From positions 1-32,490 of the forward strand of contig JAPLDB010000012.1 in assembly GCA_026391975.1 (NCBI GenBank): a stretch of 32,490 bases of DNA. Reading direction: 5' to 3'. The notes below the pieces were generated by a model. The model searched no databases. It was given only the letters and a program-made list of their open reading frames with translations, and was not told where the DNA came from. Source of the stretch: Bacteroidota bacterium. GTDB lineage: Bacteria > Bacteroidota > Bacteroidia > AKYH767-A > 2013-40CM-41-45. The position numbers and the translations under genes were made by a program. This document shows, in pieces, positions 5,988 to 29,976 of the stretch (position 1 is its first letter; each line of letters starts with the position of its first letter).

Positions 5988-6091
5988 AGTTGAGATTTTC
6001 CTTGTTTTCGAGCTGCGAATATAACAGTAAGAATGGAATAACTTACCAGCCTGATGTCCTGATAAATACATTCTTTACGTACCTTCGTAAT

Positions 6092-7843
6092 GTGAAATAC
6101 ACCTTCTCCACCCCGCATCCCGTCGATCATCTGATCCATGTTGAAATGGTTGTGACAGGAATTGACAGGGATGAAATTCTTTTTCAGCTTCCATCCTGGC
6201 GCCCGGGGAGGTATGAACTTCAGAATTTTGCAAAGAATATTCTGCAATGGAGGGCAACCAATGAAAAGGGCGAAGCGCTGGCTCACCTGAAAATGACAAA
6301 AGACTGCTGGAAGGTCAAATCAGAAGGAGCATCAGAAATTCATGTTCATTTTGCGTACTACGCTGCACAGGCCGATGCCGGCGCCTGTTGGGTGGATGAG
6401 GATCTGTTTTATTTCAATCCGGTGCATTGCTGCATGTATGTTCCGGAAAAAATTCTCGAGCCATGTGAAGTTGAACTTCGTGTTCCGGATCATTTTCTGA
6501 TCGCCACTTCTCTTAAAAGCGCAGGTAAAAAACAATTCATCGCGGCCGATTATCATGAACTGGTTGACAGTCCGGTAATGGCAAGTCCTTCCTTACAGCA
6601 TCATTCTTATGAAGTGGAAAAAACACACTTCCACATCTGGCTATATGGTGAATGCAAACCTGATTGGGGCCGCCTTGTAAATGACTTCAGGAAATTTACA
6701 CAGGAAGAACTGAAGATGATGCAGGACATTCCAACAACTGATTATCATTTTCTGGTTCTTGCGCTTCCTTATAAATTTTATCATGGGGTGGAGCATGCAC
6801 ACAGTGCTGTTTTGGCAATAGGCCCTGGTACTGAAATCATGAGTGATGATATTTATACTGACTTCGTTGGAGTTGCTTCACATGAGTTGTTTCATGTGTG
6901 GAATATCAAATACATCCGTCCGCAGGAGATGCAGCCGTATGATTACACCAAAGAAAATTATTCGCGGCTTGGTTTTGTTTACGAAGGGGTAACAACCTAT
7001 TATGGTGATCTATTCCTGGCGCGTTGCGGCGTATATTCAATAACACAATTCTTAAAAGAAATTTCCATAAGAATTCAAAAGCATTTCGACAATTACGGAC
7101 GCTTTAATTCATCTGTAGCTGATTCATCTTATGATACCTGGCTGGATGGCTATGTACCGGGCGTCCCTCACAGAAAGGTCTCCATATACGATGAAGGTTG
7201 CCTGCTGGCTTTGATGACTGACCTCATGATCCGTCGGAAAACGAATAATGAAAAATCGCTGGATGATGTAATGCGCGCTCTGAACAATGATTTTGCAGCC
7301 AAGAAAATCGGATATTCAGAGCACGACTATATTTCAATAATAGAAAACCTGACCAATGAAGGCGTGGCTGATTTTTTCATTGATTATGTGTACGGCACAG
7401 AAGATTATGAACCTTTGTTGGCAGACCTTGTATCGCACTTTGGATTGAAGATTCAGAAATCCCTTTCCCAAAAAAGTTTTGAGCGTGATTACGGATTTAA
7501 GGTCACCGAAGAAACCGGCGTACTCAAAGTTCTTAAAGTCGCCCCTGATTCTCCTTCTTATGAAGCCGGGTTAGGAAAAGACGATGAGATCATTTCAGTC
7601 AATGATATCAAGGTAGAAAAAAATCTAGAAGAACTTATTACTCATTTTCATGCCGCAGTTGTTACGATGAAAGTCTGCACCCCGATGAAAAAGATGAAAA
7701 CGATATTACTTGAATTGAGCCACGACAAGTATTTTCACGAATACAAACTCGCAAAAGCTGAAAACCCAAGTACCAATCAGCAAAAGTTTTTCAACGAGTG
7801 GATGAAGAGTGCGGTGAGTAAGACGTATTCGTTTATGAACTAG
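6092..7843 (+). CDS. M61 family (glycyl aminopeptidase-like) metallopeptidase with PDZ domain
   Basis: From a GTG at 6092 the protein is 583 residues and begins (M)KYTFSTPHPVDHLIHVEM, the normal start of the family. The open frame continues upstream to a TTG at 5990, but those residues are unconserved. The zinc site is HELFH (264-268), with the third ligand probably Glu298 in YEGVTTYYGD. A C-terminal PDZ domain (about residues 470-550) contains GVLKVLKVAPDSPSYEAGLG and DEIISVND. No signal peptide is visible, so the enzyme is probably cytoplasmic and may trim peptides with N-terminal glycine or alanine. It is divergent from lpdA. A TACCTTCG at 6080-6087 resembles a -7 element, but would put the transcript start almost on the GTG, so promoter and start codon remain uncertain. 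Confidence 0.88.
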   Translation: MKYTFSTPHPVDHLIHVEMVVTGIDRDEILFQLPSWRPGRYELQNFAKNILQWRATNEKGEALAHLKMTKDCWKVKSEGASEIHVHFAYYAAQADAGACWVDEDLFYFNPVHCCMYVPEKILEPCEVELRVPDHFLIATSLKSAGKKQFIAADYHELVDSPVMASPSLQHHSYEVEKTHFHIWLYGECKPDWGRLVNDFRKFTQEELKMMQDIPTTDYHFLVLALPYKFYHGVEHAHSAVLAIGPGTEIMSDDIYTDFVGVASHELFHVWNIKYIRPQEMQPYDYTKENYSRLGFVYEGVTTYYGDLFLARCGVYSITQFLKEISIRIQKHFDNYGRFNSSVADSSYDTWLDGYVPGVPHRKVSIYDEGCLLALMTDLMIRRKTNNEKSLDDVMRALNNDFAAKKIGYSEHDYISIIENLTNEGVADFFIDYVYGTEDYEPLLADLVSHFGLKIQKSLSQKSFERDYGFKVTEETGVLKVLKVAPDSPSYEAGLGKDDEIISVNDIKVEKNLEELITHFHAAVVTMKVCTPMKKMKTILLELSHDKYFHEYKLAKAENPSTNQQKFFNEWMKSAVSKTYSFMN

Positions 7844-7861: not shown

Positions 7862-8026
7862 AAAGTCATTAAGTCATTGGAATCAGCCAAACAGCCGTCA
7901 TTGAGTCAATAAGTCATTGGAAAAGTGACACCGAATAAGACCTCATATTACAATTGTATCAATGACATAGTGACCTATTGACGGCCGTTTGGCTGCATGG
8001 CTGTTCCCAATGACGGCTGTTGGCTG
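7862..8026. repeat. Convergent intergenic inverted repeat built from GTCATTGG / CAGCCAAACAGCCGTCA words
   Basis: CAGCCAAACAGCCGTCA at 7884-7900 is matched on the other strand by TGACGGCCGTTTGGCTG at 7979-7995 with one mismatch. A third, shortened copy, TGACGGCTGTTGGCTG, is at 8011-8026 and abuts the ridA stop codon. AGTCATTGG and AATGAC words add to the pairing. It lies between two convergent genes and could form a large stem-loop. Confidence 0.75.
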
Positions 8027-8404
8027 CTACCTGACTGCTATCATCGAGATCTCCACGTTCACTCCTCTTGGCAATCCTGCTACCTGGACTGTTTCGCGGG
8101 CGGGAAAATCCTTTTCGAAGAATTGTTCGTAGACCTCATTCATGTGCGGGAAATCGTTCATGTCCTTGAGAAAAATGGTGGTCTTTACTACGTTTGAAAA
8201 GTGCATACCCGCGGCTTCGAGGATATTCAGCAAGTTGTGCATAACCTGACTTGTTTCCTGAATAATGTTGATCGTGATGAGATTCCCTGTGGCGGGATCA
8301 AATGCAATTTGTCCGGAGATGTACAACGTATCGTTGACAAGGACAGCCTGGCTGTAAGGTCCAATTGGCTTTGGTGCTTTTTCTGTTTTGATGATGGTTT
8401 TCAT
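8027..8404 (-). CDS. ridA: RidA family reactive enamine/imine deaminase
   Basis: The 125-residue protein begins MKTIIKTEKAPKPIGPYSQA at the ATG at 8404; an upstream in-frame extension to 8437 enters a repeat and is unlikely to be translated. Family motifs are GPYSQAVLVNDTLYISGQI, the central VVKTTIFLKDMNDF, and the C-terminal LPRGVNVEISMIAVR, whose Arg binds the substrate carboxylate. RidA forms a trimer that hydrolyses 2-aminoacrylate and related enamines made by PLP enzymes, protecting those enzymes from damage. It stands alone, convergent with the M61 peptidase and divergent from pabA. The stop codon is immediately followed by an inverted-repeat word. Confidence 0.93.
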   Translation of the reverse strand: MKTIIKTEKAPKPIGPYSQAVLVNDTLYISGQIAFDPATGNLITINIIQETSQVMHNLLNILEAAGMHFSNVVKTTIFLKDMNDFPHMNEVYEQFFEKDFPARETVQVAGLPRGVNVEISMIAVR

Positions 8405-8430
8405 ATTCGGTAGTGGGTTAAGAAAAGTTT

Positions 8431-8503
8431 CACGCAAAGGCGCTAAGCCCGCAAAGACTTAGCTCGGTTTCGTTTTTCTTGGCGTTCTTTGCGCCTTTGC
8501 GTG
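8431..8503. repeat. CACGCAAAGGCGC inverted repeat
   Basis: The left arm CACGCAAAGGCGCTAAG (8431-8447) pairs with the right arm CTTTGCGCCTTTGCGTG (8487-8503) at 16 of 17 positions, with a 39-nt spacer. It sits in the divergent ridA-pabA gap. The same arms return at 29500-29635 and in the tandem repeat after it, so this is a dispersed family. Confidence 0.85.
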
Positions 8504-8553: not shown

Positions 8554-9135
8554 ATGAAAATTCTTCTGCTCGATAATTACGACTCCTTCACCTATAACCT
8601 TGTACACCTGGCTGAGCAGTTTGACGGAGTAGAGGTTTCAGTGCAACGGAATAATGAATTCAGGGTGGAGGATGCACATCATTTTGATAAAATTCTGCTT
8701 TCGCCGGGACCCGGACTTCCTGATGACGCCGGGGTTCTTAAGCGTCTCATCAGGGAAATGGCAGGAAAGAAAAGCATATTCGGTGTATGCCTCGGCATGC
8801 AGGCTATTGCAGAAGTTTTCGGTGGCACGTTATTCAACCTTGAAAAAGTTCAGCATGGTATTGCGACATTAACGACTGTTATTGATCCATCAGAAATTCT
8901 CTACAAAGATCTTCCATTGCAATTTAAATCCGGCCGTTACCATTCGTGGATGGTGAAAAAAGAAAATCTCCCCGGTTGTTTTCAAATCACGAGTGTGGAT
9001 TCAAATCAGCAGATCATGAGTCTCCGGCATAAAGAATTTGACATATGCGGGGTACAGTTTCACCCGGAATCTGTGCTGACGGAATTCGGGAAAGAGATGA
9101 TGGGGAACTGGATTAATGCTGATTTGAAGAGGTGA
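8554..9135 (+). CDS. pabA: Aminodeoxychorismate/anthranilate synthase glutamine amidotransferase subunit
   Basis: This 193-residue class I glutamine amidotransferase starts MKILLLDNYDSFTYNLVHLA. The nucleophile is Cys79 in GVCLGMQAIAEVFGG, and the other two triad residues are His170 and Glu172 in VQFHPESVLTEFG. The oxyanion segment SPGPGLPDDAG is at 50-59. It supplies ammonia to a chorismate-using partner, either PabB for folate or TrpE for tryptophan. Neither partner nor any trp gene lies nearby, so an orphan, possibly shared subunit is likely; the symbol pabA is a choice, not a proof. The final codons run into a word repeat at 9136. Confidence 0.9.
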   Translation: MKILLLDNYDSFTYNLVHLAEQFDGVEVSVQRNNEFRVEDAHHFDKILLSPGPGLPDDAGVLKRLIREMAGKKSIFGVCLGMQAIAEVFGGTLFNLEKVQHGIATLTTVIDPSEILYKDLPLQFKSGRYHSWMVKKENLPGCFQITSVDSNQQIMSLRHKEFDICGVQFHPESVLTEFGKEMMGNWINADLKR

Positions 9136-9180
9136 AGATGTGTAAATGTGCAAATGTGAGGATGTGAGGATGTGAGGATC
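9136..9180. repeat. GATGTG / AAATGTG word repeat
   Basis: Directly after the pabA stop, AGATGTGTAAATGTGCAAATG is followed by three GAGGATGTG-like units. The vocabulary is the same as at 2416-2519 and 16787-16850. No terminator is seen. Confidence 0.65.
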
Positions 9181-9192
9181 GAATCTCAAATA

Positions 9193-14837: not shown

Positions 14838-14906
14838 CATCAAATGCCTCCAACTCCAATATGGTTTGGCCGTTGGTCCAAAGGACTCCTTGCGGAGCTG
14901 TTGCTC

Positions 14907-14927
14907 CCCCTCTCCCTTGGAGAGGGG
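14907..14927. repeat. CCCCTCTCC palindromic element
   Basis: CCCCTCTCC (14907-14915) and GGAGAGGGG (14919-14927) form a perfect 9-bp stem with loop CTT, followed by CCGGGGGAGAGG. It lies between the convergent toxin and argS genes. I recall very similar elements in many Bacteroidota genomes. It may act as a transcription end, although no T-run follows. Confidence 0.75.
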
Positions 14928-14941
14928 CCGGGGGAGAGGCC

Positions 14942-16786
14942 CTACATCCTTTCCGGCGCCACAATCCCCAACAACCGCAAACACTCTTTGATTACCTCTG
15001 CAGTCAGCGATGCAAGCTGCATGCGGTAAAGCGATGTGTTCTTATCAGCTTCGTCAACAATCACATTGTCATGGTAAAAATGGTTGAACGATTTGGCTAC
15101 CTCATAAACATAATTGGCAACCACAGCCGGCGAAAAATTCTCTGCTGCCTCTTTTACGATAGCAGGATATCGATAAAGTACCTTTATTACATTCTTATCT
15201 GCGGTCAGATTTCCGGCGTGTTGGTCATTGGCTTCTTGCTGCCCATTGCTGGCTGCTGCCTGCTTACTGCCGCTGCTTACTGCTGCTCCAAATACGAAAC
15301 CCCCTTTCCTGATCACACTCCTGATCCGCGCATGTGTGTACTGAATAAACGGTCCTGTATTTCCGTTCAGGTCAATACTCTCCGCCGGATTGAAAAGCAT
15401 TTTCTTTTTCGGATCCACCTTCAGGATAAAATACTTGAGTGCTCCCATTCCAATTGTGTGGTACAATTGCTTGGCTTCTTCGCTGTCAAAATCGTCAAGC
15501 TTGCCGAGTGCTTTGGTTGTCATCTCTGCTTCTTCATCGATCTCCTTAATCAAATCGTCAGCATCCACCACTGTCCCTTCACGCGATTTCATTTTTCCGG
15601 AAGGAAGATCTACCATTCCGTAGGATAAATGGAACAAGCCATCTGCCCATGGTCGCCCGAGTTTTTTGAAAATCTCTTTCAGCACTTTGAAATGGTATTC
15701 CTGCTCATTGCCTACAACATAGATGAGCTGTTGCAATCCGTCAAACTCATCGAAGCGGAGTGACGCAGTTCCTAGATCCTGTGTGATGTAAACGGAAGTG
15801 CCATCTGCCCTCAATAAAACTTTCTGATCAAGGCCCACATCAGTGAGGTCAATCCAGATGGAGCCGTCATCCTTCTTAAAAAATGCTCCTTTGCTCACTC
15901 CTTCCTCCACAATCTTTTTTCCGAGGAGGTAGGTTTGAGATTCATAATATATTTTATCGAAATCAACAGCCAGTTTTTTATAGCTGATGTCAAAACCCTC
16001 ATACACCCAGCCATTCATCATTTTCCAGAGATCCATCGTTTCCTTATCACCTGCTTCCCATTTCAACAACATTTCCTGGATCTCCTTTACAATTGGCGCA
16101 TTCTTTTCAGCATCTTCCTTACTTATACCATTGTGAACAAGATGAGCGACTTCCTCTTTGAATTTTTTGTCGTACTCTACATAGTATTTACCGACAAGAT
16201 GATCCCCTTTTGTATGCGAAGATTTCGGTGTTTCGCCGTGCCCGTATTTTTTCCATGCCAGCATGCTCTTGCAGATGTGGATACCCCGGTCATTGACAAG
16301 ATTCACTTTCTCAACTCTGTGTCCAACCGCCAGGAGAATTTCTGCCACTGAATAACCAAGCAGAATATTCCGCATGTGACCTAGATGCAACGGTTTGTTG
16401 GTATTCGGTGAAGAATACTCCACCATTAAATGGCCCGGCGTTGAATATGTTTTCTTCAGGTTAATGAAATCCTTGCAATTTCCTGATGCATTCACAAAAA
16501 AATCTTTCCAAAAGGTATCGCTGATTGATAGATTTAAAAATCCCTTCACCACATTGAAAGCTGAAACCAACTTACAGTTTGCAATCAGTAATTCCCCGAT
16601 TTCATTTCCTGTCTGTTCGGGAGATTTTTTTGAAGCTTTGGTGTAGGGAAAAACTACCAGTGTTACATCTCCTTCAAAATCTTTTTTTGTTTCGTCAAGT
16701 TTGATTTCATCAGGGGAAACGGAAAGAGTGTAGAGGTTATGAAGTGTATCGGCAATTGCGGATTTTAATTCGGATTCGAAGGTCAC
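14942..16786 (-). CDS. argS: Arginyl-tRNA synthetase
   Basis: The 614-residue protein begins with a GTG at 16786 (MTFESELKSAIADTL); no ATG is near and the alignment with ArgS N-termini is natural. Motifs are the class I HLGH signature (134-137, within SPNTNKPLHLGHMRN), the arginine-binding region, the KMKSREGTVV segment replacing KMSKS, and YTHARI of the anticodon-binding half. It charges tRNA-Arg in the cytoplasm. Residues about 501-530 (from AAVSSGSKQ to HAGNLTA) are a low-complexity segment encoded by intergenic-type word repeats and appear to be an insertion; the length is somewhat above the usual 590-600. Its neighbours arginase and arginine decarboxylase also act on arginine. Confidence 0.95.
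   Translation of the reverse strand: MTFESELKSAIADTLHNLYTLSVSPDEIKLDETKKDFEGDVTLVVFPYTKASKKSPEQTGNEIGELLIANCKLVSAFNVVKGFLNLSISDTFWKDFFVNASGNCKDFINLKKTYSTPGHLMVEYSSPNTNKPLHLGHMRNILLGYSVAEILLAVGHRVEKVNLVNDRGIHICKSMLAWKKYGHGETPKSSHTKGDHLVGKYYVEYDKKFKEEVAHLVHNGISKEDAEKNAPIVKEIQEMLLKWEAGDKETMDLWKMMNGWVYEGFDISYKKLAVDFDKIYYESQTYLLGKKIVEEGVSKGAFFKKDDGSIWIDLTDVGLDQKVLLRADGTSVYITQDLGTASLRFDEFDGLQQLIYVVGNEQEYHFKVLKEIFKKLGRPWADGLFHLSYGMVDLPSGKMKSREGTVVDADDLIKEIDEEAEMTTKALGKLDDFDSEEAKQLYHTIGMGALKYFILKVDPKKKMLFNPAESIDLNGNTGPFIQYTHARIRSVIRKGGFVFGAAVSSGSKQAAASNGQQEANDQHAGNLTADKNVIKVLYRYPAIVKEAAENFSPAVVANYVYEVAKSFNHFYHDNVIVDEADKNTSLYRMQLASLTAEVIKECLRLLGIVAPERM
15197..15286 (-). repeat. Word-repeat insertion inside argS
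   Basis: On the plus strand the stretch contains GTCATTGG, GCTTCTTGCTGCCCATTGCT and GGCTGCTGCCTGCTTACTGC, then CGCTGCTTACTGCTGC. The same words (GTCATTGG, GGCTG, TGCTNCCTG) build the intergenic repeat at 7862-8040. It is in frame (90 nt) and replaces the linker between YTHARIRSVIRKGGFVF and VIKVLYRYPAIVKEAA. Confidence 0.55.
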
Positions 16787-16926
16787 TGTCGTTGATTTGT
16801 TGATTTGAAGATGTGCTGATTTGAAAATTTGAAGATCTGGAGATTAGGAACAGCCGGGTTGAATAGTTGAATAGTTAATTAGTTGATTGCAAATTATTGA
16901 CATGAATCAACTATTTACCTTCTGAA
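16787..16926. repeat. GATTTG/GAAGATGTG word repeat 5' of argS
   Basis: GTTGATTTG occurs twice, followed by GAAGATGTGCTGATTTGAAA and ATTTGAAGATCTGG, then GTTGAATAGTTGAATAGTTA and ATTAGTTGATTG. No clear promoter element can be picked out of the repeats, although argS must be expressed from here or from the arginase gene. Confidence 0.6.
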
Positions 16927-19550: not shown

Positions 19551-19785
19551 ATTGTGCGAATAACCAATCCGTACGTTCTGATAGCTCCCGACCCATCGGG
19601 ACGGGATTCCTAATTTCGAATCGACCAAAAACTTATTCGGTAAATTGTTCCTTGTTTTCAAATTCTTAAACTGTCTAAATTCGAACCAATTACGGATCAA
19701 TATCGAAAAAATAGGAATCTTTCGTTATTCGAACCACTAACGATTCGAAAATTCGAAACCTTTCGTTATTCGTACCCATTTTTTC
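19551..19785. repeat. ATTCGAA/CGTTATTCG word array upstream of efp
   Basis: CTTTCGTTATTCG occurs twice (about 19719-19731 and 19760-19772), with CGATTCGAAAATTCGAAACC between them and TCGAATCGACC earlier. The palindrome TCCCGACCCATCGGGA lies at 19586-19601. The words read ATTCGT on the efp coding strand. Confidence 0.7.
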
Positions 19786-22621: not shown

Positions 22622-22740
22622 GAGTAACTAATTACGAATGGGAACGAATGTACCAAGTACGAATGGATACGAATGTACGAATAACCCCGCCTGAATGACT
22701 TTCCCCATAGTTATCGGGACGGGCAGGGAATGCTTGCGAA
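22622..22740. repeat. ACGAATG word array with ATCGGGA palindrome
   Basis: ACGAATG recurs four times (ATTACGAATGGGAACGAATG, AGTACGAATGGATACGAATG, TACGAATAACC), followed by TCCCCATAGTTATCGGGA at 22702-22719 and GCGAATTTAC. The words read ATTCGT on the strand of the FAH gene, which starts at once to the left. Confidence 0.7.
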
Positions 22741-29499: not shown

Positions 29500-29635
29500 T
29501 GTCACGCAAAGACGCAAAGCCCGCCAAGGTTGAAGAATTAATACAATTACTTTGCGAATTTTGCAGCTGTGGGTGGCACCTTTATTCATAACTTATACCC
29601 TCACATCTTTGCAGCCTTTGCGCCTTTGCGTGACA
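29500..29635. repeat. TGTCACGCAAAG inverted repeat
   Basis: TGTCACGCAAAGACGCAAAG (29500-29519) pairs with CTTTGCGCCTTTGCGTGACA (29616-29635) at 19 of 20 positions; the spacer is 96 nt. It is a longer-spaced relative of the 8431-8503 element. The right arm is the first block of the tandem array. Confidence 0.85.
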
Positions 29636-29955
29636 CATTTTTCTTTCTTTTGGCCTTCCCACACCCTTAACCCTATAGCGGAACCCACGCACATCACTCC
29701 GAAATAGATATTGTTCATTGTTATCCTCAATGAAAAGTAGTTATGTCTGATTCGTCTTTATTTCTTTGCGCCTTTGCGTGACACATTTTTCTTTCTTTTG
29801 GCCTTTCCACACCCTTAACCCTAAAGGGAAACCCTCGCACATCACTCCGAAATAGATAGTGGGCATTGTTATCCTTAAAGAAAAGTAGAAATGTCCGATT
29901 CGTCTTTATTTCTTTGCGCCGTTGCGCCTTTGCGTGACACATTTTTCCTTCTTTT
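29617..29955. repeat. 148-bp tandem repeat, two full copies and a partial third
   Basis: Copy 1 is 29617-29764 and copy 2 is 29765-29912, with 13 differences counted by eye (about 91 per cent identity) and no gaps. Copy 3 begins at 29913, has an 8-nt internal duplication (TTTGCGCCGTTGCGCC) and fades after about 29955. Each unit has TTTGCGCCTTTGCGTGACAC, a CCCTTAACCCT GC-rich block and ATCACTCCGAAATAGATA. The third copy ends 20-30 nt before the crotonase start and its TTCTTTTG resembles a -7 element. Confidence 0.9.
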
Positions 29956-29976
29956 GTATCCTGTAAATATTTCACT

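Follow-up and report, generated by a model that had tools for sequence, protein, structure and literature searches.

The window, i.e., the whole stretch of 32,490 nucleotides that we analyzed, belongs to contig C217 of a Bacteroidota genome of 3.61 Mb assembled in 239 contigs. It carries argS, whose product scores 406 bits against the family model TIGR00456 (cut-off 262), which establishes full-length membership, and contains the domains PF00750, PF05746 and PF03485, covering both the class I catalytic and the DALR regions. The best Foldseek matches of its predicted structure are ArgRS structures (2zue, 1bs2 and 1f7u). The initial annotation had placed a repetitive segment in frame within this gene, and this placement holds. 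Indeed, the segment is translated as AAVSSGSKQAAASNGQQEANDQHAGNLTAD in an intact frame of a complete ORF, whereas its two remaining sense frames contain two stops each. The site lies in the anticodon-binding domain, after the HARIRS helix. A C-rich inverted repeat, CTCTCCCTTGGAGAGGGGCCGGGGGAGAGG, adjoins the argS stop codon (14885-14941), possibly a terminator or else a repetitive palindrome.

Table 1. Features of the window that bear on the argS linker.
Feature	Position	Strand	Description or basis
argS, arginine--tRNA ligase	14942..16786	-	614 aa, GTG start, complete
Word-array linker, ArgS residues 501-530	15197..15286	-	Lag-7 and k-mer tests, linker length, pLDDT
Word GGCAGTAAGCAG within the linker, found genome-wide	15260..15271	-	Genome count of GGCAGYARGCAG
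Conserved stretch PFIQYTHARIRSVIRKG with the residues that follow it, up to the array (helix 478-499)	15287..15352	-	Alignment, model
8-bp word array of GATTTGAA type (family D3)	16790..16850		Directly upstream of argS; words unrelated to the linker
Intergenic word array between convergent genes	7862..8040		Contains GTCATTGG and, with one mismatch, GGCTGCTGCCTG

On the coding strand, the linker DNA reads as a series of degenerate heptamers (GTAAGCA, GCGGCA, GTAAGCA, GGCAGCA, GCCAGCA, ATGGGCA, GCAAGAA, GCCAATG), i.e., a mix of 7-bp words of the GGCAGTA, AAGCAG and AGCAGCC types. Its repetitive nature, already proposed from inspection, is borne out by two tests: the segment matches itself at lag 7 at 25 of 42 positions, a score equaled by 1 of 1000 dinucleotide shuffles, and it holds 12 repeated 6-mers against 3.0 in codon shuffles, none of 1000 reaching this count. 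The array is a tandem one whose 7-bp unit is no multiple of a codon, and its copies form a degenerate mixture and not near-perfect repeats of one unit; the perfect form occurs in the ArgS linker of a relative (L017). The lag-7 score is near our threshold, and at this level around 1 in 13 coding calls is expected by chance.

The linker also shares its words with the non-coding DNA of the genome. It has 28 10-mers in common with the sampled intergenic DNA, as compared with 10.3 in shuffles (0/1000) and 12.0 in codon shuffles (1/1000). When base composition is left uncontrolled, this count is ordinary beside those of other coding stretches. However, because intergenic DNA is AT-rich, the raw comparison with other coding segments is uninformative, and the shuffles of the segment itself are therefore the result to trust. 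These data bear on the simplest alternative, in which the site would be an ordinary low-complexity linker written with a few repetitive Ala, Gln and Ser codons, its likeness to intergenic words being coincidental. The variability of the site in all ArgS proteins and the unremarkable unadjusted k-mer sharing speak for it, but codon shuffles almost never equal the 10-mer sharing (1/1000) and never the repeated 6-mers (0/1000), and a period of 7 is no multiple of 3. With the enrichment of lag-7 arrays in genes described below, this makes such a linker an improbable explanation.

At the scale of the whole genome, the search for the same words that had been proposed at the outset was positive: GGCAGYARGCAG is found at 22 genomic sites, against 1 for its reversed control. 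These sites are mainly in intergenic arrays, often directly at stop codons, so that the unit recurs at many intergenic places. The best own-genome BLAST match of the linker array is an intergenic array on contig C127 (91% over 35 nt, E 1.4e-7), followed by another on C96 (E 1.1e-5). The best coding match falls in a loop of murG (E 4.8e-4). We rejected MurG as a further case since it has no extra length compared with its relatives; some word matches within genes may thus be due to chance. The short matches at L262 to L264 and L267 were set aside as well, being probably chance.

The words of the linker had been said to build also the array at 7862-8040. This is partly right. GTCATTGG is present there exactly (at 7873, 7913 and 8007) and GGCTGCTGCCTG with one mismatch (at 8022), but CTTACTGC, looked for in the same array, is absent from it and found only in argS (15263 and 15276). 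This array shares words with the linker, but the best match is the one on C127. We also observed that the same array, lying between the genes at 5990-7843 and 8027-8437, appears to provide the RidA-like gene with its stop codon (TAG in GGTAGCAGCC, 8022-8033), and that the word array of L132 likewise appears to provide a stop codon via TTGGCAGTAA. Other intergenic 7- and 8-bp arrays of the window, at 2424-2540, 9109-9182, 16790-16850, 19707-19776 and 22627-22681, have differing vocabularies. The region 29607-29956 is made of 148-bp tandem repeats with TTTGCGCCTTTGCGTGACA, inverted copies of which are at 8423-8457 and 29500-29528.

We compared the length of the linker, measured between the fixed anchors PFIQYTHARI and NYVYEVAK, in an alignment of 90 ArgS loci which, as some genomes are present twice, correspond to about 85 distinct relatives, all of them Bacteroidota bins from outside the window's own genus. 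The linker counts 87 aa in the window, 70-72 aa in its family and 68-76 aa in all the other complete relatives (Roseivirga, Cyclobacteriaceae, Flavobacteriales, Bacteroidales and others). In an order-level search covering 42 genomes, the corresponding span is 174 aa in the window and 156-163 aa in the other full-length matches. The window thus has the longest linker found in these relatives and in a further 38 genomes of its order, and no conserved segment of equal length was found when we sought one in distant Bacteroidota ArgS in the alignment of about 85 relatives. The net gain is nevertheless 15-17 aa (45-51 bp, about 48 bp) and not the 90 nt first announced as an insertion, because every ArgS aligned has a variable linker at this position. 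Part of the segment replaces this older variable linker, and the event is therefore best described as an overwriting to which about 48 bp were added, and not as a clean insertion.

A structure prediction, proposed together with the alignment as a check for a disordered loop, gave the expected answer. The AlphaFold2 model, built with 42 aligned sequences, is of good quality (mean pLDDT 88.4, pTM 0.89) and falls below a pLDDT of 50 at two places only, i.e., residues 397-405, the catalytic signature loop, and residues 504-520. The array therefore codes for a link, predicted to be disordered, that joins helix 478-499 to helix 528-538 and includes a short and poorly scored helix at 516-522. Most likely, the extra residues form a neutral loop without function of their own. 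An adaptive insertion, in which the loop would have a role in, e.g., tRNA contact, regulation or partner binding, could be suggested by its location, since the anticodon-binding domain contacts tRNA in ArgRS structures. Such a role is very improbable: the loop is predicted to be disordered, its extra length is found in no other relative aligned, the same loop carries different words from one genome to another, and the same words are found in unrelated proteins.

Our survey, made with a home-made gene caller, covered 0.985 Mb, or 27% of the genome, consisting of the window and 80 contigs. In the intergenic DNA of this sample, exact tandem 7-mers and 8-mers reach 1251 and 776 per Mb, as compared with 29 per Mb for 9-mers, and the 7-mers fall into 58 different word families. 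Genes are affected too: at equal threshold, we counted 14 coding lag-7 arrays against 1.1 in codon shuffles. Among the other lags, 8, 10, 11 and 13 depart little or not at all from their control, 5 shows a slight excess and 14, which equals two units, a clear one; the values at 6, 9 and 12 stem from codons. The places hit by lag-7 arrays include signal peptides, an LptE lipoprotein leader, PyrD and type IX secretion tails (PF18962), as well as the N-terminal extensions, as called, of IspH/LytB, a beta-CASP protein and a PIG-L deacetylase. Several signal peptides are made in part of 7-bp words of the TGCATTC and GTGCATT types (L093:17005, L174:1744, L175:3529, L159:3803).

Among these genes, pyrD (L180:2740-3849, on contig C67 of the same genome), which codes for a quinone-dependent dihydroorotate dehydrogenase, is a stronger case than argS. 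It has a stretch of 62 residues where 29 relatives have 34-46, and its 16-28 extra residues correspond to AAAAGTC words and a palindrome, TCCCGATGGCTATCGGGA. The same PyrD loop is occupied by other words in two relatives, GGCAGTGGGCAGCCGGCAG (GGCAGTG words) in L229 and repeated CCGGAAA in L230. ArgS itself is affected elsewhere: in L017 the linker contains AAGTATC five times with its length unchanged, a second loop, near residue 212, carries words in L017 and, in L019, four copies of AAGTCTC, and an N-terminal linker of L008 carries AAAGTTC words. In the genome of L017 (G011), AAGTATCAAGTAT is present at five loci, against 0 for the control and 0-1 in five other genomes. Four of them lie in genes, namely in argS, in a loop of a UbiD-family decarboxylase, in a loop of AroE and in a putative secreted protein's leader, and the fifth is intergenic. 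The AAGTATC-type word produces SSIKYQ-like peptides in the three other genes (L273:1016-2896, L274:1236-1976 and L275:1491-3011, respectively), e.g., VSSIKYQ in the decarboxylase and VSSIRYQ in AroE. Across the order, GGCAGYARGCAGY reaches 146 sites against 15 for its control (sums made by hand), with a very uneven spread (56 in G006, 25 in G031 and 14 in the window's genome). Word arrays in genes thus recur, both here and in related genomes, in loops of further housekeeping enzymes, and argS is one of many. The initial idea of an essential gene having taken up repeat material while keeping its frame agrees with the word sharing and the unique length of the linker, but the event is neither a clean insertion nor a unique one.

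This recurrence also bears on an assembly artefact, which a repeat-rich metagenome bin of 239 contigs could raise, repeats being hard to assemble. The array can be read through without a break in frame, something that an artefact would seldom leave in place, and several independent genomes have in-frame arrays of their own, so that an artefact is scarcely credible.

Two processes could have produced the array. In the first one, the linker would have grown in place by local slippage only, from chance 7-bp repeats, and its likeness to intergenic DNA would reflect a convergent mutational process with a preference for units of 7-8 bp. The marked bias toward units of 7 and 8 bp, the 58 distinct 7-mer families counted in the survey, and the perfect, young-looking AAGTATC array of the L017 linker, obtained with no length change, are all in its favor. 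However, slippage starting from independent random seeds should not share words, and the presence of one word at unlinked loci (GGCAGYARGCAG at its 22 sites, AAGTATCAAGTAT at the five G011 loci, as compared with 0-1 in each of five other genomes) therefore counts against it, as does the 35-nt BLAST match to an intergenic array. Local slippage as the only process is thus a serious but unlikely explanation. Perfect arrays such as AAGTATC x5 are compatible with slippage, and the same words at unlinked loci with copying or a shared origin; the two processes may follow one another.

We consider it likely that the ArgS linker was overwritten and lengthened by a degenerate 7-bp array drawn from the pool of intergenic words, and that this change is tolerated and probably functionless. 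The target would be a solvent-exposed and unconstrained linker of the anticodon-binding domain, which an array from the pool that fills intergenic DNA would overwrite and extend. We infer that this array came from copying or template-switching from arrays elsewhere, followed by slippage of 7 bp, and not from local slippage alone. It would have survived because its net length preserved the frame, because this frame is stop-free and because the linker tolerates an Ala/Ser/Gln/Gly-rich disordered loop, the enzyme presumably still working owing to this tolerance. A broader proposal, which we put forward only tentatively and regard as rather doubtful, is that a trans-acting process in Bacteroidota disperses genome-specific 7- and 8-bp words to new places, including genes, and recolonizes permissive loops. 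If this were true, the ArgS linker, the PyrD loop, signal peptides and secretion tails would be occupied time after time by different words, and word arrays would represent a steady source of new peptide segments.

Such arrays show how repeats of non-coding DNA come to encode protein in essential enzymes, more than once and at recurring loops, within a major bacterial phylum. As the words are recognizable, the frequency of this passage from repeat to protein and the tolerant loops can be counted. This raises the question of the origin of the 7- and 8-bp words and of the route by which one word reaches unlinked places. Heptamer repeats with rare copies in ORFs are already known in other bacteria. 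Our search of the open-access literature brought up no paper dealing with such arrays in ArgS, nor any description of enzyme loops that are colonized recurrently by differing degenerate words.

The closest known systems differ from this one in several respects. TAACTGA heptamer direct repeats have been described in Beggiatoaceae, Cyanobacteria and some Bacteroidetes, and other heptamer repeats were also noted in Bacteroidetes intergenic regions (MacGregor 2015, PMC4679880). As here, the unit is of 7 bp, mainly intergenic, adjoining start or stop codons and sometimes within ORFs. However, that system relies on one fixed word and its ORF cases are mostly at protein ends (PMC4679880), whereas we observed dozens of degenerate 7- and 8-bp families and arrays in internal loops of housekeeping enzymes; TAACTGA is not among the 25 commonest 7-mer families listed, and these arrays do not belong to that system. 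The G-rich heptamer repeats of Xanthomonas and Nostoc are similarly intergenic, of 7 bp and near stop codons, but each genome there has a single G-quadruplex-type word, which is under-represented in coding regions (PMC4692102), while the words found here are not G-tract repeats. Among long simple sequence repeats, as summarized in PMC4679880 and PMC4692102, heptamers are over-represented, polymerase slippage is proposed and mid-gene copies are rare (Mrazek et al. 2007). The heptamer excess is common to both; unlike the repeats so summarized, our arrays are degenerate word mixtures common to unlinked loci. Finally, Rickettsia palindromic elements, as summarized in PMC10969869, lie in frame in unrelated metabolic genes and are tolerated by protein structure, as is the intergenic-type repeat of argS. 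These elements are palindromic, measure about 150 bp and encode a peptide that is conserved. With its net gain of about 48 bp, the argS array is shorter, and at 15197-15286 there is no inverted repeat of at least 20 nt among those listed. Moreover, its peptide is not fixed and depends on the frame and the word, e.g., GSKQAAASNG in argS and VKSQKTEVKS in pyrD.
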